DNA of 64,000 bases from the NCBI GenBank assembly GCA_029959195.1, contig CP114123.1, positions 1,054,001-1,118,000 on the forward strand, read 5' to 3'. Each line of letters opens with the position of its first letter. Position 1 is the stretch's first letter. Below the pieces are notes generated by a model. The model had not been told where the DNA came from, searched no databases, and saw only the letters and a list, made by a program, of their open reading frames with translations. The position numbers were made by a program, and so were the translations under genes. Positions 1 through 36,824 of the stretch are shown one piece after another. The stretch is from Dictyophora rubrovolvata (Eukaryota; Basidiomycota; Agaricomycetes; Phallales; Phallaceae).

Positions 1-3000
1 GCAAAAACTGTTCAACAACAGATTTCCCGCGACGAAGGTTTATTAATGAAATGCGTTCATTCGCGAGATGAGCTTGATCCTACAAAATACAATAAAAAAT
101 CCATCCATCCAACAAAAAAAGAAGGGGCAAACGCAAAACATCATCACTTACCGAACTCTGTCCCATAGGTAAATGCAACCCAGGACATCCAAATTCTTTC
201 TCCAAAAACGGCACAGAAGGGATAGACTAAACATACAACAACCTCAGTATACCAAACATAAAAAACAACAACAACGCATCTTACCCCTCCTTCTCTAATC
301 CACAAAGGCTTAACACCCCACTCTTCTTCCACCGCTCTCTCAAGAATCTTAAAATACCGACTTTCCCAAGTTACCCAACCACCAATCCGCCGTTCTATCA
401 ATACTAACCTACAAGAAAAAATTTAGATTTTAAACATCAAATTTATCGAGGCCGTACTTTGAGAGTATTACTAGACCGAAGCTTTCCAAAACTCTCCTTC
501 ATGTGCGTAACAAGCACACTCCCCACTGTCTCCAATTTTTGATCCGGTACAACTGGAACTGACACTTTTGCACGAACTCCAGCTGGTATAACAGTAGAAT
601 CTATAATATCAACGAACAAAAATATTAACGGGTCTTTCTCGCAGATTTGAAAATATTGGTGGTACACGCACTTCCGGGTCCAGATGTCTCAAGACTACGC
701 TCAAACTAAGCTCGCTCCATCGAGACGAAAGCAATTCAGCAGGTTTGTTTGTTGAATTGGATAAGAGAGCAAATAGTTCATTTTCAGCTTTTGTACGCTG
801 ACGAACATGGTCGTCTAGAAAAGAATAAAAAATCAGAAAGTACTGTGGAAGATGGGGACGGGGACGTACAAAATCCGGGGATAAGCACTTTTCTATCCCC
901 ATCAACAAGTCCAGCAAGAATTTTAACCCTAAAGAAAAACTAGATTAATAAACGCCCTATCTTACAAATATCAAAGAACATACACGTCGCACATCGGTTC
1001 ATCAACACTTCCACCTTCAACACCCGAATATAAATCAGGACCAGAATTGAACAAGTCAATCGTAGCATGAACAACGCCCCGCAATCCATACGTTATAAAG
1101 GGTGTATCTTCACCGATCCAATCCGAACTACTGCACTCCAATCAGATTCCAGTGCCTAACATGCAATTTGTCTTATCTAACCAACAACGCATCAATCTCT
1201 CCAATAGAATCCTACCTCAAGTCATCAACACCAACCCAATAATAATAAATTAAAAAACCTCCCACCTTATATTCTTTAACAACCTTCTCAAACCCCCCAC
1301 TCCCAGCCCTCCTTCTCCCCTTCAACTAAGGAAACAACATCACACCCTAACAAACGCGGCCTCAACAGCATATGCAACCGCCAAAATAGATCCTTTATTA
1401 TTGGACACACCACGTCCGTATAGATAGCCGTTTATCCCCGTTCATTCGAACGGGCACGTTTTCCATGATCTGCATGGACTTGATATTAACACCGTACTGC
1501 CTAATTTTAAATTTAGAAAAAAAAGGAAGATATGTTTTTTTTTTGGTTCGGTATGCACCCGTAAAAAAAAGTATATGCTGTTTTGGTTTATCGGATGCAG
1601 ATGTACCCAGTCCGAGTCCTTTAAACGTCGCTAAGACAAGCGGATTTGTCCCTTGTCCAGTCGCAATCTAAAAACGAAGTGAGTCACACTATTCCAATTT
1701 GAATATTTCTACCCCTTCCTACCATGTATCGGCGCCCAACTGAGTCAGCCTGCCTACAATCCTCCCGGTGTTGTTCACTGTTGCTTACCGAAGGAAGAGA
1801 GACAAACGACGAAAGCGATTTCACAAGTGGATCTAATAACGCAAGCATTTAATTAATTTTGCTTCGAGGTTTAGGTGAGGAAGTCGGTGTACCGTGCATA
1901 TATGTTCTGTCGGCATTAAGATATCCCGATGCGGTAAACACATTACTCATGGAATTATTAAATTTCCCAAATCTGTACCCAAGTCACTCGAATTTTACAC
2001 AAACTTTGGGAAAGGAGATCGCACATTGACATCGTTATCATTTCCGCCGGTAATAAGACACCATTCGTTTGTAGATTTGACTTCACCACAATCAACCTTC
2101 TTCTCCCCTTCCTGTTGAAACAGCGAAGGAGGTTGTATAGGACATAATAACCGCGTGACAATTGAGGATAGAATTCCATGACACCGCACATGCAAATTGG
2201 GCTAACCAGAGCTATTTTGCAAACGACTATAATAAAAAACGAGGCAGTCGTTAGTTTAGGCGGAATGTGTACAAAATACTTGAATACAGACCTGGATCCA
2301 ACCGTTGGCACAGCACGCGTACAAGTCTGTGTTAATCATAGACATAGCCAAAGCATCAGAATTCTAGAAAAAAAAACTCTATCAAAACCGAAAAACCCTC
2401 CAAAAAAAACAGAAGCACTATTACCTCTTAAGCCATAATAAGCCTGACAAGACTCTTAGTCTCAAAATCCCAAACCGCAACACAGCCGGCGTATATTGTC
2501 CCATGGCATGCGACGAGTGACAAAACGCCACCTTGATTGCATTCAAAGGTATCCAATAGAACAGGACCTTGCGATGTGCTGTTCTTCCATGTTCTAAAGG
2601 ATTCATCTCCGCTGCCACCAAGACCAGCATCAGCCTGTGTTTTCATTTCCTTTTTGTTGTTGCCGCTGTAGGTCGGTTGCGCCTTCAAGAGGACTAGGAA
2701 GCAAGGTCATACAATAAATATACCCGTAATGGGCTGAACGAAGGATATTTTGTGGGAGAACTTGTAGGACACGTGGGGAGTGTGAGTGGGTTGTTGGAGT
2801 AGAAAACCCTGATTGGGTTTGTGGAGTGATAGATTGAGCGGGTGAGAGGACGGGACGAGAGGTATTTATTATCGAAAAAGTGGTGCCATTTTTTACAGTC
2901 GAGGGCTAGACCGGTGTCCCAGGATTCGCCGTCTCTATCTCTGTTTATTTGGTCAAATGACGCCCAGCAATAGTCTAACGATAGTGGTGGCGTCGGTGGC

Positions 3001-3790
3001 GGTTGTGGTGCTTGGGTGCTTGGAGTCCAACGCTGGCCGCAACAACGGGGTAGCTTTGGGAGATCGTACCATCGGAGACTGGTGTTTTGACAGCCAAAGT
3101 AGAGCGTGTTGAGTGTGGGTGAATATGCGAGTGAGAATATGTCGCCAGCGGAGGTGTCGAGACGCGGAGTGAGGATGTAGTAGCAAGTCAGGTCCCGCGT
3201 GGACCGTATTCTGACTATGCTGCCGCCTGTTGAACGGGATAAGTACAAGTTGACAAGACCTTGTGCTGAAAACATACTAGACGAGCTGAAGAGCCATTCA
3301 CGCTCTCTGCCAATCTCCAAAGCGAGCACGCTGCCCGTGTGTCCGTCAAGCGGTGTTTTTATTTGTAACGCACAACGACCCCAGACCTAGAAACTAGCGT
3401 AAACAAGGGGAGTCATTGTCAGAGAACACGTACATTGATGTCACCAGTTTGACAGCCAGTAAATATATACTCCGCATCTGCTGCCGGGCCTAGGACTGAT
3501 GGTAGCGCAGAGTGTGGGTGAGACGAGGCGGGAGAGGGTCGAGTGGTGCGGTGATGTCGATGAGTACTGCGTGAGCTGTGGGTGTCAGAGAAGAGACAGG
3601 ACATGGAACAAGGCGTACGTACAATATCCGACATCTGAAGCACTCCCTAACACTCCTCATTATCCCAGTTTAAATGTCGCTTTAGGAGTCAGAGATACGC
3701 AAGACGGAACCAAAATGGCGAGTGTCGAGTGTTCGACGCTAGCTTAGTGAGTGCTTGCACACGTCAATGAATTAATGAAGGCTCAAATTG
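1..3790 (-). pseudogene. Decayed tandem copy of DUG2 (WD40-M20 peptidase), running off the left window edge
   Basis: The block aligns base by base with the intact DUG2 at 7787-11577; position 1 matches about 7825 and position 3790 matches about 11751. The first exon is visible near 3430-3640 (ending GCQTGDIN), the WD40 exon near 2700-3330, and the last peptidase exon at the window edge, so the 3' end lies outside. Damage is clear: WD40 residues are replaced (the motif VRIWSTRD of the good copy reads VRIRSTRD), a polyglutamine stretch and the codons after it are missing near 2640-2690 with a frame change, part of the GCQDGCVAVWD blade is lost near 2480, and most of the central M20 region (about 1200-1800) has no open frame. 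It is a host-gene duplicate, not a processed copy, because introns are retained. No product is expected. Confidence 0.88.
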
Positions 3791-3797
3791 CGAGCCA

Positions 3798-3990
3798 ACT
3801 ATCCGGGTATTTCGAAGTGGATAACGGAGTCCGCGCCCATTGCGAGAGCAGTGCGTAGTGTTTCTGAGGCTTTGGTTGGACCAATCAGTATAGCTGCGAT
3901 GTCGGTGATAACGTCTTTGTTTCGTTGTGGTACTCGGACGGCTTCTTCCACCGCTGCAAGAGTGTTTGTATCAATGAGAATGGTCTGGAT
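3798..3990 (-). pseudogene. Remnant of electron transfer flavoprotein beta subunit gene
   Basis: The minus strand reads, over about 60 codons, a segment with LAAVEEAVRVPQRNKDV followed by IGPTKASETLRTALAMGADS and VIHFEIPG. This is the pattern of ETF beta, whose AMP/FAD-binding region has EEAVRLKE, then GP-QETIRTALAMGADR-IHVE. In mitochondria the protein carries electrons from acyl-CoA dehydrogenases to ETF dehydrogenase. Here the frame closes with a stop straight after the last motif and I cannot find the N-terminal or FAD-loop exons on either side. The piece lies directly against the upstream end of the decayed DUG2 copy, which breaks at about 3791, so it looks like a scrap carried in by rearrangement. 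A hidden spliced gene is possible but unlikely in the available space. Confidence 0.6.
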
Positions 3991-4369
3991 TCAAGGTACG
4001 GAGAACGTGCCTAATTCGCTGAGTCGATTCTATAATTTTTTGAACGAAAGGGAAATGATCATTTTAAATCATTATTACAGCTTAAAATTAACTCACCATT
4101 TAGTATTTGACATTAGTGCCAATCCCAGCACCGTTAGTATTCACCCAGATCTTTGCTGCATAGTCCTAGTCAACACTCGCAATAGAACGTAAAGAAGACC
4201 AAACGCCTGTTACTACGTGATGTCACAGTTCTTGCGACCTGCTTGCAGCTATGGAGGACGAACGAAATTCCCTAAGTACTAAAGACTAGCTATATATCCG
4301 TCCACTTGTCACTTTTTAGTTAGAGGTTCTTATCGACACGACTTCTGTTGTGAAAGATGAAGAGTTCCC

Positions 4370-4960
4370 TCACACTAATATGCAGTATGCTCATAACAGT
4401 TTGGTCACAGCGCTTCAACTAGAAAAATCGACCTAGTAGAATTAAGCGAAATCAACAACGATTATGCACACCAGGAATTTGAGAGAAGTTTAGTTGGATT
4501 TTTTATGGAAAGACGTGGGTATCGAGTTGACGGTGATAGCCAGTGTAAGCTTGACCTTATATATGGTCGCCATTTTCTGAATTAACAAAAGCAATCAAAG
4601 TCTCATCGGCGGGTAAATGGCTTGAGCAATATGACGGATGCATTTTTGGAACTTCCAAACGGCTGTTCGAATTGTTGCTTAAAGGACACCGGAACTGCCG
4701 CTATCGAGAAATTAATGAGTTGGAAGAGCACTTCCGATCATATTTTGCCTGAAACTACCAGAGTCGCCAATCCCGGTAAATACCATCAATTTGAATTCGC
4801 ACAGGTTTAGAACTAGATATTGAAATTTGTTTAATTTTTAGGACCTATTGCTGCGATGTTTTTGAAGCACGAAGAATATACCATGAGATTTAACGTTAGA
4901 CAGATGAAGACGCATACGAGTCGTGTTTTGTTAGATATCTAGTCGAATCCAAATAAATAT
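4370..4960 (+). pseudogene. Unrecognised coding remnant next to the DUF6533 gene
   Basis: Several short plus-strand frames look protein-like but do not join simply. One from about 4446 contains AHQEFERSLVGFFMERRGYR and ends at a stop near 4583. A second, about 4587-4760, contains SSAGKWLEQYDGCIFGTSKR. A third near 4842-4940 contains GPIAAM and HEEYTMRF. The last two are recognisable in reverse orientation at about 35900-36230, beyond the other DUF6533 gene, where they are more broken. So the unit travelled with the DUF6533 block and was probably once a gene convergent with it. I do not recognise the family. Whether it is still spliced and expressed is unclear; frame breaks argue for decay. 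Confidence 0.35.
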
Positions 4961-5186
4961 GAAACAAAGCTATGATACGATCAAAAAAGAGTTACTAGGC
5001 CTGAGGCTCATTGGAAAAGATCGTCGATATCGATGCATGAGATAGATAAAGAAAACACTTATAAGAAAAGAACAAGAAAAATTCTGGGGTAAACAATAGC
5101 ATCTCGAAAATATCACAATGACAGGCTAAGATAAGTTGTCAACAGATTTGACCCAACATCAAATAAAAATCACATACGGAAATGTT

Positions 5187-6877
5187 CTAGACCTCAACAG
5201 CTTGAATGCCGCCTGTAGATCCAGGTAAATTATCATGATCATTGTCTCCAACTTCCTCCTCCATATTTCTTTCTTCAGGAGTGGTCATTTCTACAAGGAA
5301 GGATTGGTTCACGTGTTGAAGAACATTCGAAAATTGAAGTGGTGGTAAAGACATTTGACTAGCCTCAATTTTGGCCGAATTAAGGCAACGAAGATCCAGG
5401 GTAAAATCGACCACTAGAATTGATGACAGACTTGTGATAGGTCAGTGATAAGAGGATATGAATTGAAACATCAACCTCACGCATTTTGCATAATAACAAA
5501 ACTATCTGAGATAAAATCTGAAGATGGCTAAACAAATTTTAGCCAATGCGTATGATGTGTGAGGACAAAGTAATTACACCTATAAGCTAGAAAAAATCAG
5601 TTCAAATTTGTCTCCACTTTGTATGGCTAAAAGTGTACCCGTTGAATGAGTGCACCAGCGACAGTAATGGTGATAACAAAGCTTGTAAAGCCATGATAAA
5701 TTATAAGATGATTGGCATGCAAACTGAGTGCCTACCAACATCTTAATATACCTGCAAGTCACTTAATAACCTTCTTTCTAAAACCCATCCAAACTTACTC
5801 TGTGTAAGAAGCACTGAAATGAGGCTATTTCTGTCTTGAATTCCATTGTTGCATTTTAGTCTCCATATACCCCAGACCTTCCACATACAAATGCCAAATA
5901 TGAGTAAATCTGTGGAAATGACAAAGAGATCATTGATAAAGTTAACTAGGGCCAGTTTGGCTGACACATGCAAATTTAGAATGAACCAAACACTTAGAAA
6001 TGAGCATGAGCCGTACTGGGGAATGCATTGCTTCAAAGTTTGTTAATGCATAAGGAACCCGAGGATTCTGCATGAACTACAGACCTTGAAATACATCCAG
6101 GAAATGCTATTATGACTACCAATAAAGAGTAAGGTAATCAGCTTCATGATTATCACGGTCTTACTATACAAATTCAAACCAACACCAGCAAACAAACCAA
6201 AGGCCAAAGCTGAAACGAGGATCTTATTTCCTTGGCATATTGAATATGCTCGAATGATCAATAAGCCTAAGGTGATTATTATATAAATGTCTTCGAAACA
6301 ACTAAATGATGGAACACAGACCTTGAACACCAATATATGCTAAAAATGAAATAGTGCTTTGTAAATCAGCAAGTATATTACAAGATCTTCGGGTTTCTGT
6401 TATTTCAGTCAATCTCAGGTATGTATTAAGATACTTTACCTTCCTAGCTTCAAGAAAGTTGAATATAACAACAATGAGAGCTTGAAAGTGCTAAGGCTAT
6501 GCATATCCAACTCACTGAGGTGAAGTCCATTGAGATGTTAAGTCCCTGGTAAATCAAACTCCCATATCTTGCGAAAATGTACAATAGTGTAGGCAGACTG
6601 AATTGCCTGGACCATATATGCTCTTTTTCTTGTGAGAATGTTGTCAGAATAGCATAGATGAGAAGTGCTGGAGGTTTGTTGCCTTTGTAAGACTTTTTTT
6701 TGAGATATTGGATTGCTCACTTGTTGAACTGAAAATAACGAAGGCAAAAACATAACTAATCCCATAATTAGGTTAGATGGAATGACGGGGATAAAACAGA
6801 GTTGACACATACCTTTCATAGGTCTCTTGAATAATGTCCACAGTCATAGCGGCTACAGTATTATCTGTGCTGTTCAT
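5187..6877 (-). CDS. DUF6533-type seven-helix membrane protein (left copy)
   Basis: Multi-exon gene for a polytopic membrane protein of the DUF6533 group, common in Agaricomycetes and of unknown biochemical role; a receptor-like function is often supposed but not shown. The first exon starts at 6877 (MNSTDNTVAAMTVDIIQE). After a short exon comes the family signature, seen as LTTFSQEKEHIWSR followed by LLYIFARYGSLIYQG (about 6520-6680). Then follow a hydrophobic exon near 6170-6310 (IIITLGLLIIRAYSICQ), one near 5790-5990 (STDLLIFGICMWKVWGIWRL) and a C-terminal exon at 5187-5410 with VDFTLDLRCLNSAKIE and an acidic tail ending in a stop at 5187. Intron ends are GT-AG and match those of the right copy at 33916-35627. 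Internal exon edges are approximate. Both copies keep the domain order, so this one is probably functional. Confidence 0.72.
6721..6728 (-). other. Predicted 8-nt micro-exon of the DUF6533 gene
   Basis: Between the first exon (ending at 6813) and the DUF6533 signature exon (starting near 6682) the only in-frame join I find uses the octamer TTCAACAA, flanked by an upstream CAG acceptor and a downstream GTGAG donor. It turns the end of exon 1 (QETYE plus two bases) and the next exon into QETYESSTSNKPPALLIYA. The same octamer with the same flanks is present in the right copy and again restores frame there. The call rests on splice signals only. Confidence 0.5.
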
Positions 6878-7786
6878 GATATAGAGAAGATAAATGATAC
6901 CACGATTGGCCTTGGTGCTGTGGACGTGTGATCCTTACATGCAAAGAGCCCTTAAATACAGCTTGAGTCATGATAAAATTTTGTCAGTCGTCGTGCACTT
7001 GAAGTCACTTGAGATTGCATTGAGTAATTAAAAGTGAGGTCTTCAATGGAGCATGATGGTGACACCCAGATTGAAAGGAGCCCAAGACTTTAATGGTCGC
7101 AGCTCAATATGAATACTCGAGTTTTCTAATGAAAAGAATTTTGCCACCACCAGGTATGTGCATCGTATCGTCGTAGTCAATCTCATAAAATGATTTTGTG
7201 CCTCAGCTTCACGCGGGATCATGCCTCGTAGGTTCAACGAACGGTTGATATATATACTCGTTAACCTCGAGTCCCAATGGCAGTACACTAAAAAATCAGA
7301 GAGATGCTGATGGATACGGACTCTTAAAGAATTGAGGCAAGAACGACGAGGGAAATTGAAAAGATGCTGGCTTGTCAGGTGCAGTCAACTATGAAATTGG
7401 TCTTATCGATGATCCAACACAACTCATTATGATGGAACTTTCATCAAACGCAAATTAAATCATCCGATGTAAAATGAATATTGTTCGACCGCATGACTCG
7501 AAGATTATGTGAGAAGGAATACCCTGTTAACGAGAACGAAATGGTTTTCATTAATCCACACTTCTAAGCAACGTCAACCAGGGCCTTGGTCAATCTCAAT
7601 AAGCCCTTGACTCTTCATGTTCTGTTTTCGCAACTGAGATTTTTTTGAAGAAGTGTGTTTGCAAGGGTTTAATGAACCATTGTCAAGGAAATCCTTAACG
7701 AAAGTTCCGCATACATTAGAATAACTCTAACTTAACATATCGGGTATGACAAAAAGTATCAAAATTCAACAACGAACGCACTAGAC
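6878..7786. other. Spacer between DUF6533 gene and DUG2 3' end
   Basis: About 900 bases holding the promoter side of the DUF6533 gene and the DUG2 3' flank. No convincing coding frame is seen; the 81-codon minus frame at 7043-7288 lacks recognisable features. Bases at about 7680-7786 are conserved in the inverted copy (about 33130-33310); conservation then stops and reappears at about 6880-7010, so the middle part has diverged or been replaced in one of the copies. Confidence 0.6.
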
Positions 7787-10700
7787 CTAAAACTCCGACT
7801 CGCCAGACGACCCGGACACAGCAAGCAAAAACCGTTCAACAACAGATTTCCCGCGGCGAAGGTTTATTAATGAAATGCGTTCATTCGCGAGATGAGCTTG
7901 ATCCTACAAAATACAATCACAATCAAAAAATCATCCATCCAACAAAAAAAGAAGGGGCAAACGCAAAACATCATCACTTACCGAACTCTGTCCCATAGGT
8001 AAATGCAACCCAGGACATCCAAATTCTTTCTCCAAAAACGGGACAGAAGGGATGGACTACATACAACAACCTCAGTATACCAAACACAAAAAAAACAAGA
8101 ACGCATCTTACCCCTCCTTCTCTAATCCGCAAAGGCTTGACGCCCCACTCTTCTTCCACCGCTCTCTCAAGAATCTTAAAATACCGACTTTCCAAATTAC
8201 CCAACCACCAATCCGCCGTCCTATCAATACTAACCTGCCAAAAGAATATCAATGGTGATCGAAAGTAAAAGAGGGTTTTTTTCTTCGTACTTTGAGAGTA
8301 TTACTAGACCGAAGCTTTCCAAAACTCTCCTTAACATGTGTAACAAGCGCACTCCCCACTGTCTCCAATTTTTGATCCGGTACAACCCGAATCGATACTT
8401 TGGCGCGAACTCCAGCTGGTATAACAGTAGAATCTATAATATCAACCAACAAACATTAACCACTCTGAATTTTAGAAATATTGGTTGGTAGTGCACGCAC
8501 TTCCGGGACCAGACGTCTCAACACTGTGCACGCTCAAACTGGGCTCGCTCCATCGAGATGAAAGCGATTCGGCAGGTTTGTTTGTTAAATTGGATAAGAG
8601 AGCAAATAGTTCATTTTCAGCTTTTGTACGCTGACGAACGTGGTCGTCTAGAAAAGAATAAAAGATCAGAAAGTACTTTGGGGGGACGGGGACGTACAAA
8701 ATCCGGGAATGAGCACTTTTCTATCCCCATCAACAAGTCCAGCAAGAATTTTAACCCTAAAGAAAAACTCGATTAATAAACGCTTTATCTTACAAATATT
8801 GAAAAACATACACGTCGGACATCGGTTCGTCAACACTTCCGCCTTCAACACCCGAATGTAAATCAGGACCGGAATTGTACAAGTCAATCGTAGCATGAAC
8901 AACGCCTCGCAGTCCATACGTTATACAAGGCGTATCTTCACCGATCCAGGACGAATTACTACATGCCAATCAGATTCCAGTGTATGACCGATACAATTTC
9001 TTTTACCTAACCAACAACGCATCAATCTCGCCAATTGAATCCTACAACCCACATCAGCATCAAACATCGACGTGAGCATTAATCAAACCCACCTTATATT
9101 CTTTAACAACCTTCTCAAACCCACCACTCCCAGCCTCCTCCTCCCCCTCAACCAAGAAAACAACATCACACCCTAACAAACGCTGCCTCAACAAATCCGA
9201 AGCAGCATATGCAACGGCCAAAATAGGTCCTTTATTATCGGACACACCACGTCCATATAGATAGCCATTCGTTCCCGTTAATTCGAACGGGCACGTTTTC
9301 CACGATTTGCGTGGGGCTGATATAACATCGTAGTGCCTAATTTCAAATTCAAAAACAGGGGGAGAGAATAAATGAGGTTTTGGTGCGCACCCGTAAAAAA
9401 GTACACGCGGTTTGGGTTTATCGGATGTACTGAGTCCTTTAAATGTCGCTAAGACAAGCGGGTTTGTCCCTTGTCCAGTCGCAATCTAAACCGAGAAACT
9501 GAGTCACATTATTCCAATCGGATTTTTCTACCCCACCTACCATTTTAGCATCGGCGCCCAACTGATTTAAGCAACGCTTGAGCCATATTCCAGCCTGCCT
9601 ACAATCCTCCCGGTGTTGCTCGCTGTTGCTCACCGAAGGAATCGAAACAAACGACGAAAGCGATTTCACAAGTGGATCTAATACCACAAGCATTTAATTA
9701 ATTTTGCTTCGAGGTTTAGGTGAAGAAGCCGGTTTACCGTGCATATATGTTCCGTCGGCATTAAGATATCCCGATGCAGTCAACGCATTACTCGTGGTAT
9801 TATTATTGATCTCCCAAATCTATACACCGGGGTCCAATTTACATAAATCTGACTCGTGGCCAAAAAAAGGGAGAGGATAACACGCACCTTGACATCGTTA
9901 TCATTTCCGCCGGTAATAAGACACCATTCGTTTGTAGACTTGACTTCACCATGATCAGCCTTCTTCTCCCCGTCTTGTTGAAATAGCGAAGGTTGTTGTA
10001 AAGGACATAACCGTGTGACGATTGAGGATAGAATTATTCCGGAGTGGGCGTGCCACGACGCCGTACACGCAAATTGGGCTGACCAGCGCTATTTAACAAC
10101 GAGGCAGTTAGTTTTAGGCGGAAAATGTACAAAGTACTTGATGCAAACCTGAATCCAACCGTTGGCGCAACACGTGTACAAGTCAGTATTTATTATAGAC
10201 ATAGCCAAAACATCTGAATTCTAGAAAAAAAAAACTCCATCAAAACCGAAAAACTTTTCAAAAAAAAATAGCAGTTACCTCTTGAGCCATAATAAGCCTA
10301 ACAAGACTCTTCGTCTCAAAATCCCAAACCGCAACACAGCCGTCTTGGCAGCCGGCGTATATCGTTCCATCGCGTGCGACAAGCGACAAAACGCCACCTT
10401 GGTTGCATTCAAAGGTATCTAATAAAACAGGACCTTGCGGCGTGCTGCACTTCCATATTTTTATGGATTCATCTCCGCTGCCGGTTATGAGTAAAACAGC
10501 AGCGTCAGAGTCAGCCTGAGTGTTTTCATTTCCTTTTTGTTGTTGTTGTTGTTGTTGTTGCCGTTGTCGGTCGGATGCGCTCTCAAGAGGACTAGGAAGT
10601 AACGCCATGCAATAAATGTACCCATAATGGGCTGAATGTAGGATATTTTGGGGAAAAACTTGTAAGACGCGTGGAGAATGAGAGTGGGATTGGGAGTGGG

Positions 10701-11577
10701 TTGTTGGAGTGGAAAAACCTGATTGTGTTGGTGGAGTAACGGATTGAGATTGAGCGGGTGATAGGATGGGACGACCTAGACGAGGGGTGTTGTCGAAAAA
10801 GCGGTGCCATTTTTTGCGGTCAAGTGCTAGACCGGTGTCCCCGGTTTCGCCGTCGCCGTCTCCATCTCCGTCTATTTGGTCGAATGATGCACAATGCTTG
10901 TCTAGCGGTAGTGGTGGTGATGGTGGTGGCTGTGGTGGTTCGGTACTTGCAGTCCGACGCTGTCCGCGACGACGGGGTAGCCTTGACAGATCGTACCATT
11001 GGAGACTGGTGTTTTGACAGCCAAAGTAGAGTGTGTTGAGTGTGGGTGAATATGCGAGCGAGAATATGTCGCCAGCGGAGGTGTCGAGGTGTGGAGTGAG
11101 GATATAGTAGCAAGTCAGGTCTCGTGTAGACCATATTCTGACTGTACTGTCGCCTGTAGAACATTTAGTACAATTCGACAGGGCTCTGTTGAGAACATAC
11201 TGGACGAGCTGAAGAGCCATTCACGTTCTCTGTCAATCTCCAAAGCGAGCACGCTGCCCGTGTGGCCATGAAGCGTCGTTTTTATTTGGAACGCACAACG
11301 GCCCCAGACCTAAAAACTAGCTTTAGACCAGACCGGGGTGTCATCGTCGTTGAACACGTACATTGATGTCACCAGTTTGACAGCCAGCAAATATATGCTT
11401 CGCATCTGCTGCCAATCCTAGCACTGAGCTCGTCTGGTGGTGGTGAAGAGTATGACTGAGACGCGGCGGAGGAGGGTCGAGGGGTGCTGGAGACAGAGGC
11501 GGGGTGATGAGTGAATTGCGTGTGTCAGAGATGGGACAGGTCATGGGCGTACATACGATATCTGAAGCATTCCTCAT
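7787..11577 (-). CDS. DUG2: DUG2: WD40 plus M20 peptidase subunit of the glutathione-degrading GSH amidotransferase complex
   Basis: Dug2 with Dug3 forms the fungal cytosolic complex that removes the gamma-glutamyl group from glutathione. I can splice 17 exons into 958 codons with one frame: 11577-11362, 11309-11201, 11153-10279, 10220-10149, 10088-9888, 9819-9738, 9677-9541, 9485-9391, 9336-9093, 9041-9007, 8958-8812, 8756-8698, 8647-8501, 8433-8291, 8234-8112, 8056-7982, 7903-7787. The N-terminal half carries WD40 blades (GHTGSVLALE, DSTVRIWSTRD, DESIKIWK, GCQDGCVAVWD), with a polyglutamine run and a Ser/His-rich insert. The C-terminal half is an M20 peptidase: FYGHYDVISAP and GYLYGRGVSDNKGP (metal ligands), FLVEGEEEAGS (catalytic Glu pair), TYGLRGVV, GPDLHSGVEGG, and a last block with ADWWLGN, PLRIREGGSIPSVPF and MGQSSDQAHL. 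The start at 11577 follows a TATATATTAA stretch; an extra intron in the first exon is possible. All key residues are present, so this is the live copy. Confidence 0.93.
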
Positions 11578-11726
11578 TATCCCCGCTGTTTTTAAAGCCT
11601 TAATATATATAATATACGAGTCAGGAGCAACAATTACGATTACATACGCGAGACGGAAGCAAAATGGCGAGTGGCAAGTACCGAGTAGCGACCCCACCGA
11701 CTCAGCTCCGACAGTTGTGCCTGCAC
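11578..11726. promoter_or_regulatory. Divergent promoter between DUG2 and the RPAP3-like gene
   Basis: Only about 150 bases separate the two start codons. On the DUG2 side a TATATATTAA element lies roughly 25-35 bases before the ATG, so transcription may begin further away or overlap. The upstream breakpoints of both dead DUG2 copies fall in or next to this interval (equivalent to about 11690 and 11752). Confidence 0.55.
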
Positions 11727-13386: not shown

Positions 13387-13641
13387 TAGGAATGAGGAAA
13401 CACTGACAAATAATGGATTAAAAAGAAGATAGTATGTGAATTACCGTGCCAGTCTTGTGACAGCCTTATCACTTATCGTCCTTATCGTCGATATCCCTTG
13501 GTCTTATCTCGCTCCAATGTTAGTTACCTAATCGGCGATAAACCAGACTACACACATGTACATACACCAAAATGGAATTTTTGATTCGCTCGCTCTTCTT
13601 GGAAGACAACACTTTCCACCACAACGCAAAACTTGAAATAA

Positions 13642-26848: not shown

Positions 26849-27427
26849 ATATATAATTGAGATAATAGTACTGTCTAAATCTAGATTCTGTGTGATCAAA
26901 ATGGAGAGAACGATGAGGGCTACGAGGGGACCCAGACTTACATCCGCATATTATACGCCAGTCTCTCAGGCAGGCCCAGTATATCTGACCACGTCAGGCT
27001 AAAAAAATGAGGGCGCCTTTTATTGATGTTGAATTATTGTGCAAGCAAAACACATAGATTGCAAAGTAAGGAAAGAACAATGTTCGTCCAATGTTCGTCG
27101 GTCTCCAAAGGCAAGAACTTGGCGCCCAGTAGCCATCGTGCTTACCTATTACAGGCGCCTATTCCAGGAAAAAGCGTATCTTCAAGCCGTCTCTCAGCAA
27201 AACTCGACGTTGAGCACGTCCCTCAAAGTAAGAATTGTTCATTTATCCTTTTGAAAGAGTCCAAAGTGTTATGGACAATGACTCCGGCTAAATTTTGTTG
27301 GCGGGAGCCAACTTCAATGATGGATGCCTTGCTGGACCTCTGGATGACAATATCTGGGAATGACGTTATAGAAAAGGATAGCTGACTTGTTGTTTCTTTT
27401 TTTTTTCATCTCAGATCATATTATATT
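26849..27427. other. Spacer before the uL23 gene
   Basis: Contains the 3' flank of the methyltransferase and the uL23 promoter. Open frames at 27023-27385 and 27039-27254 overlap; the latter includes AIVLTYYRRLFQEKAYLQAV, which looks protein-like but has no partner exon and no match I recognise. The last about 30 bases before the uL23 start contain a long T run, a common feature of ribosomal protein gene leaders in fungi. Confidence 0.45.
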
Positions 27428-28189
27428 ATGTCGACACCAAAAGCAACAGGAAAGGGTGGCAAGAAGCGTATGTTCTTATAGAAATATTCTTTCACCACAC
27501 AGCTCTCAATAAGAATGGTCCACAGCTGCTACCAAACCAAACCCCTCCTCAGCTGCTGCTAAGGCCAAGAACGCTAAGAAAGCCGCTCTCCAGGGTACCC
27601 ATTCGCATGCTTCCCGCAAAGTCCGCACTTCCGTCACTTTCCACCGTCCCAAGGTAAGAGATTGTCAATTTGGAGGAATACTGCGATTATACAACATATG
27701 TAGACCTTACGCCTCCCCCGTAACCCTCGTTATCCTCGAAAATCGATTCCTCATGCGCCAAGAATGGACCAATACCGGACCATTATCAGGTTTGAAAATA
27801 TGCTCTGCGACTTTTAACTATTGACCGACCTATTTTGTGTTTAGTCCATTAAACACTGAAAGCTCGATGAAGAAAATTGAGGAGCACAATACACTCGTTT
27901 TCATTGTCGACATTAAGGCTAACAAGCGTCAAATTAAAGATGCTGTTAAGAAGTTGTACGATGTACAGGCGGCAAAAGTTAACACCTTAATCCGGTAAGG
28001 CAACATCTGTCTTCACTTGAATTCGTGTTTGATATAGAATAAAATAGTCCTGATGGCAAGAAAAAGGCATATGTGCGGTTAACTACTGACCATGAAGCAC
28101 TGGACGTCGCAAACAAGGTACTGGCTCAATCTGTTTCTTTTTCAAGGGTTCACATGCTTATGCGTGTTATTTAGATTGGCTTCATTTAG
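27428..28189 (+). CDS. 60S ribosomal protein uL23 (L23a/L25)
   Basis: Six short exons encode a protein that binds 25S rRNA near the polypeptide exit tunnel and offers the docking site for SRP. The order is a Lys/Ala-rich N-terminus ([13 protein letters not shown], then [17 protein letters not shown]), [28 protein letters not shown], then the conserved core [20 protein letters not shown] followed by [36 protein letters not shown] and the family's closing IGFI before TAG at 28187-28189. The last exon is only 15 bases (28175-28189), but its acceptor and the canonical ending make it secure. Introns are GT-AG and about 50 nt. Codon use is biased as expected for a highly expressed gene. Confidence 0.95.
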
Positions 28190-29985
28190 GCTTCGTTCAT
28201 AGTCGTCTGTATGTCGTACATTATGAGTATAAAACTCCATGATTATGCCAGCCTTCTAATTTCATCATGATGTCTATCTTCCAATTACTTGTAAGCAGGC
28301 TTGATCAAATAAAACTATTTCAAGCAAGTGTTTTCATCTGGCTACTCGTGGCAGTCAAGTGCGGTTCTAGCTGTCTTGCCCTAAGCTTAAGCCACTCACA
28401 AAATGCAGGACTCTCAGGCCATGCAGTCCCGATGCGTATTGACCATGTTCAATACTTGGTTCGATGACAATGGCATATTGACAAAATGCGATATTATTTC
28501 AAAAATGCCCAAGTGCATAATATAGTGGTACCTGCTGCACCCAAAAAACCGCGAGGGGAACACTTTTTTTTGAGTTTTTATCTTCGCAGCAGAATTTGTT
28601 TCAATGAGAGCACTTGTAATGCAGGGAATCAGTAGACGGAAACATAGCTAGTGTTTACTTGCGGAATTTCGCCCTTGTCCTCCACCTGCAAGCAATCACA
28701 AGAACTGTGACGTCGCATATGGGGGGTCTAGCCAAGGCAAGGTCACAAGGGGCCAGTCTGAAGCCCGCACAACCAGCTTGGTGTAAACGATCGATATATG
28801 ACTACACACGCCCTTTGAGCCTTTGTGTTTTTTTTTATATAAGGCGAGCTTATTATTGCAAAAAGCTCAAACCTGAGCGTTTCTCTATTGTTATTTCTAT
28901 CCGGCTAGCGATGATCGAATACAATGATGAGGATGGGAATGCGTGGTATGTCGTTGGTACAGGACGGTATGCTAACGATGAAAATGAAAATGAAAATATA
29001 TGGTGGTATGTGTTCGTACATGATTGCTGATATTATTCTACTATACATTGACAGTAAATCAAAAGGGGGGAAAAACTAATGAATATAGATGAATCTGGCG
29101 AAGACGCCCTTGACATCGACCCAAAGCAAAGGCACGGGGATCAAACCTCCTTCTTCCACTTCTTCCGTGGACGGGACTGTTACTGATCAGGATCGTGGTT
29201 TGAGTCCTTGTGCTTCAGCCACAGGTTATCCTCCCGCTCCATCGTCATCACGACCCATCGACGACCATGTTCACGATAAAATGCACACTTATGCAATTCG
29301 GCACGGGGGAGTTTACATTCCGCTCTCACCCTCAGCAACTTCTCAGGCAAGCCATTGTATCCCACCCTTTCATTCGGTGACGAGATCCCACATGCCTGCC
29401 TCGCTTTTAGCATGCGTGCGCATGCGGCGACCTAAATTTCGTGCTGTACTCAACTCTTGTAACTTGTTTGCAACCCTATGGACAATGCGGTCCCTTGTAA
29501 CGGCAAATAAGTTTTTTACCTTCGCGGAAGCATAGCTTTTCGTCTGGATAAAGCGTGGGTTCACGTTTTTTTTGGGACATTTAACGCTTGGGAAGAAGGC
29601 GGGGTGGGTTCGATAATCCCATATGTGATCGTAAGAGGGTCAATACTTGGTGCCTCCGATGTCGAAGGCACCTAAGCGTTGGGCATAGTCGCATTTGCGA
29701 CACGCTCTGTCGTCGATATCTTGTGGGTGGCGTTCGAGCGTCGACGACACTCGAGTGGGTTGCGTCTTATATAACCTTGTCATTCTGACTGTTCACATTT
29801 AAAATAAAGTTGATACTTACTGTTCGCAACCGCGTTCGTGTGATATTGTTGTTCTATAAACGGTGGAACAACAACCAACGATGATGCAACCGAAGCAACG
29901 GCTGTACAAAATAACTCGTCAATTCGACGGATCACTAATGAAATAAAAAAACGCTTACAAGTGGTGTTATAAAGGTGTTCTGGAC
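28190..29985. other. Interval with weak open frames only
   Basis: The first part is the uL23 3' flank. Plus frames at 28659-29030 and 29089-29535 (148 codons, Ser/Pro-rich) have no motif, no splice partners and an equally open antisense frame, so I do not call genes. A short hairpin is seen at about 29650-29673 (GGTGCCT pairing with AGGCACC). A GA-rich repeat (GAAAATGAAAATGAAAAT) lies near 28979-28996. Confidence 0.45.
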
Positions 29986-29989
29986 CTAG

Positions 29990-30488
29990 CAGACCCGTGG
30001 TCCAATCAAGAGGTCCATTTTCCGCATCGGGGAGTGTGAAATAGACTTGAGCAGTTGTCCTCCACCATCATGTGCCCCCCATAAGTGTCTGTGCCTGTGT
30101 CTGCGTCTATGCCAAATCCATGCTATATTTCCCTTATCATACACTACATCTTCCATATATTCCAACAGATGCGCGTTTTGTGAAGAGGTGTTTGGCACGT
30201 AATAGAGACCCAAAGGTGACACGTCTGATGTTTGTGAACTTGAAGAAAACCAATAATTTCCTGAGATGGGGCGGGAGTTCGAAGACGACGGCGCGTCTGA
30301 GTGCCATGAATCAGAGGCTGGTAGGATAGATAGAAATTGCTGAGGACGTTTAGAGCCTGGGGGAAAGATGGGCCAGTTGTTCGAGAGAGTTGAGCTTCGA
30401 AGTAACTTTGGAAGTCCTCACAAGGAAGGGCTTCCAAAGGTACTTCGAAACAGTCAGACCGCTCGTTGTATTTGAAAGGGTATGACAT
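29990..30488 (-). CDS. Uncharacterised short protein, possibly frame-disrupted
   Basis: From 30488 the minus strand reads MSYPFKYNERSDCFEVPLEA, continues through PCEDFQSYFEAQLSRT and LSNFYLSYQPLIHGTQTRRR, and reaches EIIGFLQVHKHQ near 30230. A second minus frame then takes over with SPLGLYYVPNTSSQNAHLLE and MEDVVYDKGNIAWIWHRRR, ending at 29986-29990. The composition of both pieces is protein-like, and they abut, but no GT-AG intron joins them cleanly. That suggests a frameshift, a sequence error or an unusual small intron. The family is not recognised; no signal peptide or membrane helix is evident. The N-terminal phrase resembles a small globular protein and the C-terminal part is His/Arg-rich. 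Confidence 0.35.
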
Positions 30489-30554
30489 CGCAGAGGTTAG
30501 AGAGGGGGGAGGGAAGGGGAATAATTGTTGGTGGTAAAGAAGAAATTCTTGTTG

Positions 30555-30899
30555 TCAACCGGACATGGATAGTGTCCTTTTATCTGAGACACAACGGCGA
30601 TGCATGAACTCAGATAAAGGACCGCGTAATGCTGTCGTCGTTGCGCGAAGGCCATGACATTGGGAACAGCATGCAAACCACCCTAAAGATTCAACATTGA
30701 CCACAAATGAGAGATCGCTCAAAGGGAGGATCTCTGTGACGTCGACGTGTCGAAGGCCCATCATGCCTCGATCAACAAGGACTCGCTCATGGTTGCAAGG
30801 TAAGGATCTAAGCTCATACCTAATATAGTCAGAAACAAGAGTCGCGATACTCTGAAGAAAAATAAAAGAAAAGACACATGTTAGTCCTTGTTTGTCCAT
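30555..30899 (-). CDS. Possible exon(s) of an uncharacterised minus-strand gene
   Basis: A 114-codon frame includes SIATLVSDYIRYELRSLPCN, HVDVTEILPLSDLSFVVNVE and FACCSQCHGLRATTTALRG. The piece before SIATL ends in a pyrimidine-rich TTTTATTTTTCTTCAG, a good intron acceptor, so the exon may begin near 30852 with the true start upstream. A possible earlier exon with a clean GTAAGT donor sits near 31250-31330 (SNIIWSNSSAALNAVCPPKC). No family is recognised. It may belong with the frame at 29990-30488, 65 bases downstream on the same strand, but this is not shown. Confidence 0.3.
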   Translation of the reverse strand: MDKQGLTCVFSFIFLQSIATLVSDYIRYELRSLPCNHERVLVDRGMMGLRHVDVTEILPLSDLSFVVNVESLGWFACCSQCHGLRATTTALRGPLSEFMHRRCVSDKRTLSMSG

Positions 30900-32250
30900 A
30901 TTTCCCCTTCATGACCAAAGTTCTGTTCCTGTTCCTTTTCATATTGAATTTATGCGGTCCTTATCGACATCGAACGCATGTGAAACTAAATCTGCTGTCA
31001 ATAACAATAAGCAGCCTTTATATTGTTTCTTCGACCAAAGGTATGTTCTGACTGATTGGGGAATGAACGGCTTACAAGAAGAGTGGCCAGTTTACGTACG
31101 ATCAAAAAATTCAATGTATACCCCTGTCTTTACGACCCGGGTGTGATTAATAAACTGTTTATATTAGTCCGCCACCTTGCTATTTACACGCCACAGTAAG
31201 TTAGTTCTATAATCTACAACATGAGTATACAGTCTAGAAGTATCATAAAACTTACATTATCCGATCCGCATTTTGGAGGACACACTGCATTCAATGCAGC
31301 TGAGGAATTGCTCCAAATGATGTTGGACCGCTAGCGGAGAAGAGAGGAATGATGAAAAACTAAGCTGTCCGAACACCTTCGATTCCACTGGATTTTATAT
31401 GCGTTTCTGCTACTTTTGATTGTGAAGTTAATAAAGCAATTAGTTTACACTTCAGGAATAGATTATTGTTCACTTGAAGTGGGATGGCCTCGCGACACTC
31501 TCAAACAATAGGATGCGTCTTTAATAGATGCAATCCTTTTTTATTTTATACCTATGTTCAACAATGAATATTTTTGTGTTTTTTTCTTCTTCATTTCCCT
31601 GTGCTCTGGGACGAGAATTCAGTACTCGAATAATTTGGGGCAGAGATGATTTAGGACAATTAAATCACAATTGAGGAGTGTGTTTTTTTAGAGAAACAGT
31701 TATTCAATTGAAGCTACAGAAATAAAGGCAATAACGTACTTACGCTAATTTGAGCCTCGAACACTGCAGTTGTGCATTATGGCAGTGTTTTTTGTTGGAT
31801 TCGGTGAGCCGCCGCGAAGTCCCGGTTCTGATTCCTAGTCGCTGGCGAGAACTAGCAAAATTCTTGTTGAATACCTTGCGATGCGATAGTAATGGGGAAA
31901 AAGGCTGGTTGATTATACGGACAGGTCAATAAAAATCTGTCCCACGACGTATTGCTGGCGCGACATCGGAAAACATCTTCAGATAGTCGTCGACGCCACT
32001 CTCATCCCAAACTTATCTCTTAAGCTGGAAATATGTCTCAAGCCACTTCTTCCGTGTTGGGCCATGCCGTTTGTAAAACATGAAGCGCTTAGGTCCGAGG
32101 TAAAATGTTTAGGGTTTAGGACTAAAAGACTCGACGAGAGTTAAACTAACACAGACCTTAGATAAAGAAAGCATAGCCAATTCCTGCTCAATTTGAAAGA
32201 AAATATCCACCAAAATGAAATGTAGGTAACCACGTTTTGTTCGCGCGTGC
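30900..32250. other. Interval without assigned genes, left of the inverted block
   Basis: Small frames (30892-31146 plus, 31750-31932 plus) are unsupported. One segment near 31250-31330 on the minus strand may be an exon. Two TTTAGGG-like units occur near 32105-32118, too few to suggest a telomeric tract. Homology to the DUG2/DUF6533 block starts at about 32250-32280. Confidence 0.4.
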
Positions 32251-32269
32251 TGTAAACGCACTGGCGGAG

Positions 32270-33130
32270 CTTGTCACATTTTGGTTCCGACTCACGTACT
32301 CTAACTCTTGAAGCAGCGCTTCAACGGGAATAACGAGGAGTGCTTTAGATATCGTATGACCGCCTCAATTTCATGTCCGTCTCATCTCTGACACACGCAA
32401 CTCACTCATCACCCCGCCCGTTTCCTTAGCATCACGTTGTGCGCTTTTAGTACGTCCCGTCGTCCCCAGTGCTTCTTCTTATTTCCTATTTTTAGACGAC
32501 CATATTCGTCAGCCCACTATTCACTTTAACAAACAAATCTGCCAAATCGCTTTCGTCTCGATGGAGCGAACCTAGTCTGAGTGTGCTGAGTATTGAGATC
32601 TTGAGACGTCTGGTCCCGGAAGTGCGTATATCTAAATTTGTGCAAAAAAAACAATGGTTAATTTCTGATCTTTGTTCGTTGATTTTACAGTTTCTACTGT
32701 TATACTAGCTGGAGTTCGTGCAAAATGTCAATTCGGGGTTGTACCAGATCAAAAATTGGAGACAATGATTGTTTGCATGTCAAATTTCAAGATTCTTGAG
32801 AGAGCTGTGGAAGAAGAGTGGGGTGTTAAGCCTTTGCGCGCCAGAGTAGGGGTTGGTCGCTTTTAATTGGAATTTTTAGTCTATCCCTTTTGTGCCGTTC
32901 TCGGAGAATGAATTTAGATGTCCTGGGTTGGGTTTACCTATAGGACAGAGTTCGGTAAGTGATGATGTTTGCGCTTGCTGCTTCTTTTTTTGGATGGATG
33001 AATTTTTGATTGTAATTGTATTTTGTAGGATCAAACTCATCTTGCTAATGAACGCGTTTCGTTGATAAACCTTCGTCGCGGGAAATCTGTTGTTGGACGG
33101 TTTTTGCTTGCTGTGTCAGAGTCTTAGGTC
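32270..33130 (+). pseudogene. Internally deleted, inverted DUG2 copy
   Basis: The start (about 32270-32420) matches the DUG2 5' region reversed, equivalent to about 11690-11510. The sequence then jumps to the equivalent of about 8690 and continues to about 7740, so the WD40 half and the catalytic M20 centre are gone. Recognisable pieces are FVDFTVSTVILAGVRAKCQF (about 32672-32733) and FKILERAVEEEWGVKPL (about 32787-32838). Further losses lie within the retained exons: the segment between LETVGS and the RYFKILE exon is collapsed into one frame. The last exon, near 33030-33120, still reads close to ERVSLINLRRGKSVV. No product of use is expected. This is a duplicate of a host gene with introns, not a processed copy. 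Confidence 0.85.
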
Positions 33131-33403
33131 GTTGTTGAATTCTTATATTCTTGTCATACCCGGAATGTTAGATTAGGTTAGCGTTATTCTATAATTTTAG
33201 AATATTTCAATGTATGCAGAACTTTCGCTGAAAATGTTTTTGACGATGATTTATTAGTACCCTGTATACACCGCATTTTGTTTAAAAAGATTTCAGTTTC
33301 GTCAACAGGTATCGAGAGGCACAGTCAAGTTGCGCGCACGGAACGAAAGTGCCTGTCGAGGCTGAGGCTGAGCGTTGACGGATTACATACCAATCGCTAG
33401 AGA

Positions 33404-33423
33404 AATATCACTCGAGTGATATT
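33404..33423. repeat. Perfect 20-bp palindrome
   Basis: The two 10-base halves AATATCACTC and GAGTGATATT are exact reverse complements, centred on a CTCGAG site. It sits in a part of the inverted block (about 33310-33780) that has no counterpart beside the left DUF6533 gene. It could be a dimeric transcription-factor site or chance. Confidence 0.7.
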
Positions 33424-33915
33424 GTTTCGTACTAAAAGAAACAGAATCAGGTACATGCTGAGACAAGAGTCTAAAATGAAGGACGGTGCCTCAGTTCCGC
33501 GGAGTAATAAAGGCTCGAGTGAGGAGTAGACGGTGACACTAAAACTATCTATATACTCTTACAGGTAGTCATTGTGTGAGTGTATATCTCAACAATCGTT
33601 TATTGATCCTGTAGATCATGATGTTGGTCCTTTTTCACCGGAAGGTTTTTATCCTCATCATGGTGCGACCTCAACTCGTTATTCAAGTGAGCCTTGCAAC
33701 CTGCATCACGCTCCACTGAAAACCTCGCTATTTTAAGCAAAACCAGAGCTCTATGGCACGATACATGATATGATGATTGATGCGGTTTGACCATGGCTCA
33801 AGTTGTATTTAAGGGCTGTTTGCATCATGTAAGGATTAAATACAAGCTCACGGCGCCGGTACCGAGGCGAATTACTCCAACTCATAATTGTTATACCATT
33901 TATCCTCTCTGTATC

Positions 33916-35627
33916 ATGAACAGCACAAATAATACCATAGCTGCAATGGCTGCAGACATTATCCAAGAGGCCTATGATAGGTATATGTCAATTCTGTTTT
34001 ACGCCCATCATTACATCTAATCTAATTATGGGATTAGTTATGTTCATATTTTGGCTATTTTCAGTTCAACAAGTGAGCAATCCGACATCTTGAAAGGAGG
34101 GTTTAACCAAGATAGCAAACCTACAGCACTCAGTTTCTATGCTACTCCGATAACATTCTCCCAAGAATTAGAGCATATATGGTGCAGGCCATTCAGTCCG
34201 CCTTCACTATTGTACATTTTCACAAGATATGGGACTTTGATTTACCAGGGACTTATCATCTCAATAGAATTCGTCCCAGTGAGTTTATTATGTGTAGTCT
34301 TAGTGCTTGCAGGCTCTCATCCAACTTTCTTGAAGCCGGGAAGGTAAAATATCCTAATACATGCCTGAGATTGACTGAAAAATACAGAAATTCGAAGATC
34401 TTGTAATATACTTGCTGTTGTACAAAACGCCACTTTCATTTTGCCATATATTGGTGTTCAAGGTCTGTGTTCCATTATTTAGTCGTTTCAAAGGCATTTA
34501 TCTAATGATTACCTTAGGTTTATTGGCCATTAGAGCATATTCAATATGCGAAGGAAATAAAATTGTCATTTCACCTTTGGCCTTTGGTTTTTTCTCTTAC
34601 TTTTGTATAGTTGTGTATGGTAAGAACCTCATACTCATGAAGCTCATTTGCCTTACTCTTTATTGGTAGGGATAATAGCATTTCCTGGATGTGAAATTCC
34701 AAGGTCTGTACTTCATGCAGAATCTTCAAGTTTCTTATGCATTAACAAACTTTGAAAAAAATGCAATCACCAGCACCAGTATGTCTCGTGCTCATTTCTG
34801 AGTGTTTGATTCATTCTAAATTTGCATGTGTCAGGCAAACTGGCCCTGTTTGACTTTATCGGTGACATCATCGCCGTTTCCACAGATTTACTTATATTTG
34901 GCATTTTCATGTGGAATATCTGGGCTATATGGAGACTAAAACACAACAGTGGAATTCAAAGTAGCAATAGTGTCATTTCCGTGCTTCTTACACAAAGTAA
35001 GTTTGGATGGGTTTTAAAACAAGGGTTATTGAGCGACTTGCCAGGTATATTAAGATGTTGGTAAGCACTCAATCTCTGTGTCGATCATCTCATAAGTTAT
35101 GATGACTTTCTTTGAAAGTTTCGTGGTCACCATTGCTGTTGCTAATGTACCCATTACATGGGTAAGTGTTTGCTGGTGTCATGATATATTTCAATCCAAG
35201 GTCAATTTAAACTGTTGGTTTTTTTTTAGCTTGAAAGTGTATTTGTTTTTCACCCGTCATGTTCATTATCCAAATCTGATTAGTCCTCCTAATAGCCCCT
35301 TGTGTCACAGAGCTATACTCTTATGCAAGATGCGTGAGGTTGATGTTTTAATTTATATCCTCTTATCATTGACCTATCACAAGTCTGTCAGGAATTCTAG
35401 TGGCCGATTTCACTCTCGATCTTCGTCACCTTAATTCGGCCAAAATTGAAACTAGCCAAATATCATTACCACCACTTCAATTTTCAAACATTCTTCAACA
35501 TGTGCACCAATCCTTCCTTGTGGAAATGGCCACTCCTGAAGAGAGAAATATTGAGGAGGAAGCTGGAGACAATGATCATGATAATTTACCCGGGCTTACG
35601 GGCGACATTCAAGCTGCTGAGGTCTAG
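33916..35627 (+). CDS. DUF6533-type seven-helix membrane protein (right, inverted copy)
   Basis: Paralogue of the gene at 5187-6877, in the opposite orientation. The start MNSTNNTIAAMAADIIQEAY is at 33916; an ATG in the same frame at 33787-33793 would give a longer N-terminus, but the left copy does not keep that frame. The family signature is at about 34130-34260 (ITFSQELEHIWCRPFS, LLYIFTRYGTLIYQG). Later segments are MITLGLLAIRAYSICEGNK (about 34505), KLALFDFIGDIIAVSTDLLI with WNIWAIWRLKHNSGIQ (about 34840-34960), SFVVTIAVANVPITW (about 35110-35160) and the C-terminal VADFTLDLRHLNSAKIE to the TAG at 35625. Exon borders follow those of the left copy. The proteins are roughly 75-80 % similar in the aligned exons by eye, with mostly conservative differences, suggesting that both were kept by selection. 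Confidence 0.7.
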
Positions 35628-36824
35628 AATATTTTTCTATGCGATTTTTATTTGATAAGCCAAATTGGGTTGACATTCAATTTATCTTAATCCGTCATTG
35701 CAATTTGTCGAGATGCTATTGTTTGCCCCAGAATTTTTCTTGTTCTTTCCTTATATGTATTTTCTTTATCTATCTCATGCGTCGACATCGACAATCTTTT
35801 CCGATGAGCCTCAGACCTAGGCATTCTTATTATAACTTTGTTTAATATTTATTTGGAGACTAGATATTCAACAAAATATGACTCGGATGTCTACTTTATG
35901 TCTTCTTGATCTGCCGGAAGTTTGATCCCATGGCATATTCTTCGTTTGTCCACACCGCGGCAATAGGTCCTAAATGCAGGTTTCAATATCTAATTCTAAA
36001 ACAGTGCAAATTGGAATCGATGGTATTTACCAGGATTGGCGAGTCCGATAATTTCAAGCAAAAATATGATCAACATCAAAACCGCCCTTCTCATTAGTTT
36101 CTCGATAGCAGCAATTTCGCTGTCCTCTACACTACAACCGTTCGGAGGTTCTAAAAATTGCTCAAATCATCGGCCGGTTTATCAGCTGACGAGACTCTGA
36201 TTGCTTTGAATGTTAGTTTGGCTCCTTACTTAATTGTCTAACTTTCGTGGAGTTTTCAATATGGCTCTTACATTCTATGTACATAAATACAATATGTTAC
36301 TTTGTTCAATATTTATCTTGCGGGTTAAATAAGTCTCTCACTTGGAATATTACTTATCTTCCGAATTGACCGAAAAATTTACTACACATCATTTGCAGGG
36401 ACGTCGTGAACTACGCGTGCCTGTGAAATTTTGGAGAGCAACTCGAAATTATTTGCTCCTCCAACCCAAAGCCGCAAAACGAAATAATGACGAATGATAG
36501 AATGAATGAGTATGCGATTGATGATATGCAGTAGTATATATTCGGTATAGTGCTAGACGCTTCTAATTTCGTGAGATGATGATTCTGAAACGTGCGGCCA
36601 GCGTTGGCCTTTTCCGGGTCGGAGTACCAATTTTTTGATAGTCTAAACTGTTTGCTCTCTTCATCGTGTACAACGTCCTCCCCGTGTCCTTTCGTACTCT
36701 GTCTGCTGCTTTTTCAACTGCAGGCCCGACGGTCGCAAAGAAAGCACCTTCCGACATTCACTCCAAACCACACTCCTTTCATAAATATCCTTTTCTAAAC
36801 TAAAAAATACCAAACGTTCTCACA
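35628..36824. other. Right end of the inverted block and promoter of the mucin gene
   Basis: Up to about 36230 this matches 4570-5180 in reverse, including decayed pieces of the unknown remnant (near 36100-36220 and 35900-36000). Homology fades at about 36230-36260. The rest is unique spacer; about 36720-36824 is pyrimidine-rich and likely the leader of the mucin gene. No further gene is seen. Confidence 0.55.

Follow-up and report, generated by a model that had tools for sequence, protein, structure and literature searches.

Introduction

Birth-and-death evolution with gene conversion is a general model for tandem multigene families. The locus described here lies in a stretch of 64,000 nucleotides of Dictyophora rubrovolvata (C7:1054001-1118000, on contig 7 of a 28.2-Mb genome in 11 contigs; hereafter the window), and is built of units in which a DUG2-like gene stands beside a gene encoding a DUF6533 domain. 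It resembles birth-and-death families in its tandem units, its mixture of open and broken genes, the exchange between neighbouring units and its dispersed relics, but differs in that each unit combines two unrelated genes with opposite fates, one of which is intact only once.

Both genes have described relatives. The fungal DUG pathway is presented as a route of glutathione degradation (PMC9012958). As in the DUG2 protein of that pathway, WD40 repeats and an M20 peptidase domain follow each other in one chain at our locus; unlike it, the gene is accompanied here by at least nine degenerate copies, and one Pfam model gave no clear DUG3 partner. The DUF6533 domain, described as basidiomycete-specific, is carried by SNB1 (snowball), for which seven transmembrane helices are predicted (PMC10949477). 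The genes examined here likewise place the domain in a multi-pass membrane protein, but they form a weakly constrained and heavily duplicated group. In the literature searched, little has been published on the function of the DUF6533 family, and no work combining DUG2, pseudogene and Basidiomycota was found.

An earlier note on the window had described three DUG2 copies, one live and two dead, arranged in tandem and inverted, with DUF6533 genes in a like relative place. Self-BLASTN and Pfam bear this out; what was described is really there, and the main reading put on it is sound, though incomplete. We interpret the locus, with a probability of about 0.8, as the birth-and-death expansion of a DUF6533 membrane-protein gene in which DUG2 travelled as a passenger.

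Results

Comparison of the window with itself (BLASTN, matches at E 1e-5) confirms the repeated block. The direct match pairs 1-3631 with 7825-11565 (81.5% over 3833 columns), and a long inverted one pairs 4588-6978 with 36207-33786 (77.6% over 2483 columns). Three further inverted DUG2 matches pair 7622-8182, 8357-8596 and 11498-11588 with 33308-32784, 32767-32518 and 32418-32322, respectively. The E-values, 0 for the two long matches and at most 1e-19 for the three inverted pieces, exclude chance. Beyond the pieces of the units, the only self-match at this threshold is one short repeat near 38 kb. In the left-hand part both genes are on the minus strand, in the right-hand part both are on the plus strand (Table 1).

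Searches of the genome and inspection of the 32 kb left of the window show that the window covers only the right edge of a larger array. Five tandem units, A to E, lie in one orientation at C7:1030116-1065588, spanning 35 kb, and are about 75-84% identical to each other. A unit consists of spacer, DUF6533 gene and DUG2, and measures 6-10 kb in the four units where both genes are present. Unit A carries an additional segment of DUF6533 3' flank, unit B comprises the spacer and a 5' fragment of DUG2 without a DUF6533 match, and unit E, which holds the intact DUG2, is the last unit at the right end of the array. No match to unit A or unit E was found in the 8 kb preceding C7:1030001. The three copies first recognized are thus real, but the picture drawn from them was too small, as several dispersed copies add to the five tandem units; more than one duplication event, as had been supposed, is borne out. 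The most similar pair of segments seen in the array is a piece of about 1.1 kb common to units A and B (C7:1032072-1033216 and C7:1040582-1041700), which is 93% and 86% identical in two parts and includes an exact match of 218 bp.

Table 1. Features of the DUG2-DUF6533 units in the window (positions in the window; indels and stops relative to unit E)
Feature	Position	Strand	Description
DUG2-like gene, unit E, intact	7787..11577	-	958 aa plus stop from 17 exons; WD40 repeats precede the M20 peptidase domain; gene model and Pfam
DUF6533 gene, unit E, open	5187..6877	-	13 exons, 332 aa; gene model and Pfam PF20151
E-D high-likeness stretch (DUF6533, intergenic, DUG2 3' end)	5187..8130	.	limits approximate, from 150-column windows
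Degenerate DUG2, unit D	1..3631	-	runs on for 182 bp beyond the left edge of the window, to C7:1053818; 15 frame-breaking indels, 2 stops
Spacer between unit D DUG2 and unit E DUF6533	3792..4537 (C7:1057792-1058537)	.	kin spacers in other units; low copy number
DUG2 remnant, unit F	32277..33308	+	5' and 3' ends only; middle deleted; 10 of 17 exons absent
DUF6533 gene, unit F	33916..35627	+	no frame-breaking indel or stop on unit E model; exon 11 splice donor missing; homology span 33786-36207
Array-spacer fragment	28575..28714	. (inverted)	C7:1082575-1082714 vs C7:1049706-1049841, 74%, E=5e-14; read as unit border
Unrelated dispersed repeat	28783..32191	.	between spacer fragment and unit F DUG2 remnant

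The intact DUG2-like gene has exactly the limits originally assigned to it (gene model 11577..7787). Its 17 exons, joined through GT-AG introns, give a single open frame of 958 residues, in which the WD40 matches (59.7 bits, cut-off 27) precede the M20 domain (Peptidase_M20, 83.1 bits, cut-off 24.6; M20_dimer, 26.5 bits, cut-off 21) in one chain. We take WD40 repeats followed by an M20 peptidase to be the layout of DUG2, and the protein is predicted by homology to be the WD40-M20 subunit of the glutathione-degrading DUG pathway. The sequences HYD, SDNKG and EGEEE and a C-terminal H are present at what we take to be the positions of the M20 metal-ligand motifs. The VSxxxW motif of M20 enzymes presumably bears a metal-binding aspartate; the residue after the serine, where we would expect that aspartate, is N in units E and C and S in units D and A. 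At the border of exons 10 and 11 (window about 8930-9041), the live gene reads VSNSSW and copies D and A read VSSSDW. A frame with a TPR match, from 11793, adjoins unit E. The genome searches found no other intact DUG2; when the M20 part of the protein served as the query, one weak match, on contig 6 (C6), was returned outside the known DUG2 loci. For the DUG3 partner, a genome search with the GATase_4 profile gave one match, also on C6, at 22.0 bits against a cut-off of 23, in a search in which genes are split by introns.

At least nine degenerate DUG2 loci were found (D, C, A, B, F, C7:685k, C7:929k, C9 and C3), or ten if a fragment at C7:934k is counted separately; as the genome search scores best candidates only, these counts are lower bounds. 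Reading frames were checked in copies D, C, A and F, and the other five are called degenerate from the large parts that they miss. The left copy of the window, unit D, is a decayed tandem copy as described, but not with the limits 1-3790: it starts 182 bp outside the window, and the homology stops at 3631. The dispersed DUG2 pieces lie at C7:685-687k, C7:929-934k, C9:361k and C3:2679k, each with DUF6533 matches nearby. DUF6533 copies without a nearby DUG2 match are located at C7:861k, C7:1180k and C7:1203k.

The gene models rest on sequence, and that of the DUF6533 gene was read by hand from the alignment of the copies, after automatic splice models had proved poor. In the joined unit E protein, PF20151 matches profile positions 2-46 of 46 at 45 bits (cut-off 24.1). 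Joining the exons widened this match from positions 8-46 in a single exon, and the start of the model therefore looks right; confidence is lower for the end of exon 7 and for the small exons 9-12. A crude hydropathy profile shows five distinct hydrophobic stretches, of which two could each accommodate a pair of helices by their length. At least 144 PF20151 matches occur genome-wide, and a large DUF6533 group is concentrated on contig 7. At the DNA level, 52 of 59 match pieces to window 4588-6978 fall on this contig, which makes up 8.6% of the genome, 51 of them within 373-1205 kb.

The two genes have decayed differently. When the unit E exons were projected on 10 other DUF6533 copies and on four of the nine degenerate DUG2 loci, the DUF6533 copies had 7 frame-breaking indels in about 9.9 kb of aligned codons (about 0.7 per kb), against 53 in about 7.5 kb (about 7.1 per kb) for DUG2. 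The start codon is kept in all 10 DUF6533 copies, which together contain 3 stops (1 in A and 2 in the C9 copy), while a neutral simulation predicts about 46 when summed, or 2.0 to 6.9 per copy; the simulation was set at half the pairwise synonymous distance (Ks), and the copies share history and are not independent. The DUF6533 copies are presumably selected for, and their products may act as receptors.

Units E and D share a stretch of unusually high likeness, comprising the DUF6533 gene, the intergenic region and the 3' end of DUG2. A three-way alignment of units E, A and D has 632 variable sites between 5187 and 8130, at 437 of which E and D are the same (DUF6533, 216/337; intergenic, 172/235; DUG2 3' end to 8130, 49/60) and at 89 E and A, whereas for the 640 variable sites of 8131-11577 the counts are 243 for E and D and 220 for E and A. 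The two parts of this remaining DUG2 give 114/276 and 129/364 for E and D, and 87 and 133 for E and A. The longest E-D run was reached in none of 2000 shuffles. This was equally so for the longest E-A run (11491-11519), pointing to a possible second, small exchange at the 5' end of DUG2; the longest D-A run is unremarkable (P 0.19). In sliding windows of 150 columns, E-D identity is 0.81-0.99 over 5189-8130, with at least 0.89 in 16 of 20 windows, compared with 0.59-0.86 to the left of the tract and 0.71-0.96 from 8134 to the end of the gene, and it changes sharply near 8130. Either gene conversion or unequal crossover between the neighbouring units would explain this pattern.

The exchange tract also accounts for the unlike distances between units E and D, with an intron distance of 0.087 for DUF6533 and 0.290 for DUG2 and Ks values of 0.116 and 0.295, respectively. 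Synonymous distances had been suggested as a means of ordering the duplications. They could be computed, but exchange has left different parts of a unit with different ages, so that they cannot simply order the events, and dating the duplications from synonymous distance alone was abandoned, the two genes of one unit pair giving unlike ages.

The inverted unit F occupies C7:1086277-1090278. Its large deletion and the relative place of its DUF6533 gene had been recognized correctly; the gene itself projects to 33916-35627 (Table 1). In a tree of 11 DUF6533 copies, F is sister to C7:1203472 with 100% bootstrap support; E and D are joined at 100% and the copies at 861k and 931k at 97%, and the remaining inner branches have 27-77%. 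This nearest examined relative lies outside the window, about 113 kb to the right of F, so that F is no direct inverted copy of a window block. The 140-bp spacer piece on the DUG2 side of F is as expected if F originated inside a tandem array. The unit border is also carried by the copies at C7:929-934k and C3:2678-2683k; these two and F thus derive from an array that was already tandem.

The earlier note had further suggested that the inverted pair could promote recombination. This claim is weak, given the 77.6% identity between E and F, and exchange between direct units is visible instead. The longest exact match is 31 bp between E and F and 139 bp between D and E, which makes exchange within the array likelier than an inversion between E and F.

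Discussion

The locus is best explained as follows. The array grew through repeated local duplication, as seen in its five units of the same orientation, and pieces of such an array, in three cases across a unit border, also stand at other places and in other orientations on contigs 7, 9 and 3, where they were presumably copied. The DUF6533 gene, one of a large family here and presumably coding for a multi-pass membrane protein, is the part left largely readable in the copies examined. DUG2 would have been carried along, its copies outside unit E decaying via small indels and larger deletions. The units also swap sequence: the last two are much more alike in the DUF6533 gene and at the 3' end of DUG2 than in the remainder of DUG2, a pattern that gene conversion or unequal crossover would produce. 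Tandem duplication is likely to have come first, followed by dispersal and inversion, with the D-E exchange last, a position suggested by the low divergence of the tract.

Several observations weigh against this interpretation. Stops are below the neutral expectation in DUG2 as well, with 10 in four copies (D 2, C 4, A 2 and F 2) compared with about 36 expected, and the Ka/Ks of DUG2 relative to unit E (Ka, nonsynonymous distance) is 0.24 in D and 0.23 in A. This deficit and the low ratios imply that for part of their history the DUG2 copies either were functional or had their sequence replaced from a functional copy; they were not simply dead from birth. Judged by the unit E model, only the unit D copy among the 10 DUF6533 copies is without a fault; one or two frame-breaking indels occur in 6, stops in 2 and a changed splice site in 8. 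Some of these copies may be dead, and across the DUF6533 copies a Ka/Ks of 0.37-0.72 relative to unit E indicates that constraint is weak. Many of these defects sit at exon ends fitted on unit E (exons 7 and 10-12), which are the least certain. What is specific to DUG2 is the many indels and the lost exons, the deficit of stops being partly common to both genes.

The low stop count and Ka/Ks of DUG2 are also what recommends the converse view, in which DUG2 was amplified for dosage, with DUF6533 as the passenger, and its copies became useless later: copy D, with 2 stops against about 12 expected and a Ka/Ks of 0.24, seems to have been functional for part of its past. We nevertheless consider this improbable, because DUF6533 is the better preserved gene and belongs to a large family, because the three DUF6533 copies named above have no adjacent DUG2 match, and because the degenerate DUG2 loci adjoin DUF6533 matches, with unit B lacking a DUF6533 of its own. 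Capture and movement of both genes by a transposable element would fit the dispersal of the copies, some inverted, over three contigs, and a different dispersed repeat does sit inside the border of unit F. It is an unlikely explanation all the same. The spacer was considered as a transposon and rejected, as it is not of high copy number (10 match pieces genome-wide, inside or beside units); three copies cross unit borders rather than share fixed ends; and the 29 frames of the window scanned with Pfam contain no transposase domain, a scan that falls short of full transposon annotation.

Basidiomycetes are often dikaryotic with divergent haplotypes, and haplotypes mis-joined side by side in the assembly would mimic tandem copies. 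Such an artefact is very improbable here: the five units are about 75-84% identical, copies that are inverted or dispersed occur on three contigs, and DUG2 is degenerate in the copies examined; moreover, the other genes of the window are unduplicated by self-BLASTN at E 1e-5, although joined haplotypes would double the flanks as well. Mating-type linkage was also considered as a cause and set aside: all 17 matches in a pheromone-receptor (STE3) search lie on contig 11 (C11) and none on C7, the homeodomain mating-type locus not being among those searched.

Expansion of the DUF6533 gene with DUG2 as passenger thus remains our preferred interpretation, and the locus is a clear natural case of two adjacent genes that were duplicated together and met opposite fates, in a process of a known kind. 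Its copies of varied age allow measurement of how a passenger gene decays and of how exchange blurs the dating of duplications. A bolder extension, which we offer tentatively and would hold at well below even odds, is that a fast-changing family of membrane proteins, possibly receptors, expanded and was re-shuffled in place, dragging the housekeeping gene DUG2 through rounds of duplication and loss, and that events at the neighbouring receptor gene leave their mark on the sequence of a metabolic gene. As the exchange tract enters DUG2, the lone live gene would then keep sharing its 3' end with its dead neighbours.

Other features of the window

The dispersed repeat at the border of unit F, of about 3.4 kb, has kin copies on C6, C3 and C2. 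A pair of these, one on C6 and one on C3, is 85.5% identical over 3.9 kb and has frames that are zinc-finger-like by eye. The window copy misses about 1 kb of the middle and has there a short repeat of about 125 bp, with 90-91% identical copies on C11 and C6.

Scans of the window for tRNA genes and Rfam families gave no match. A long open frame at 37323-39158, rich in Ser, Pro and Gly and containing short tandem repeats, has no Pfam match. Frames of ordinary genes occupy 44016-63480, with CwfJ-like, She9/Mdm33, flavodoxin-FAD-NAD reductase, AtuA-like and HR1 matches.

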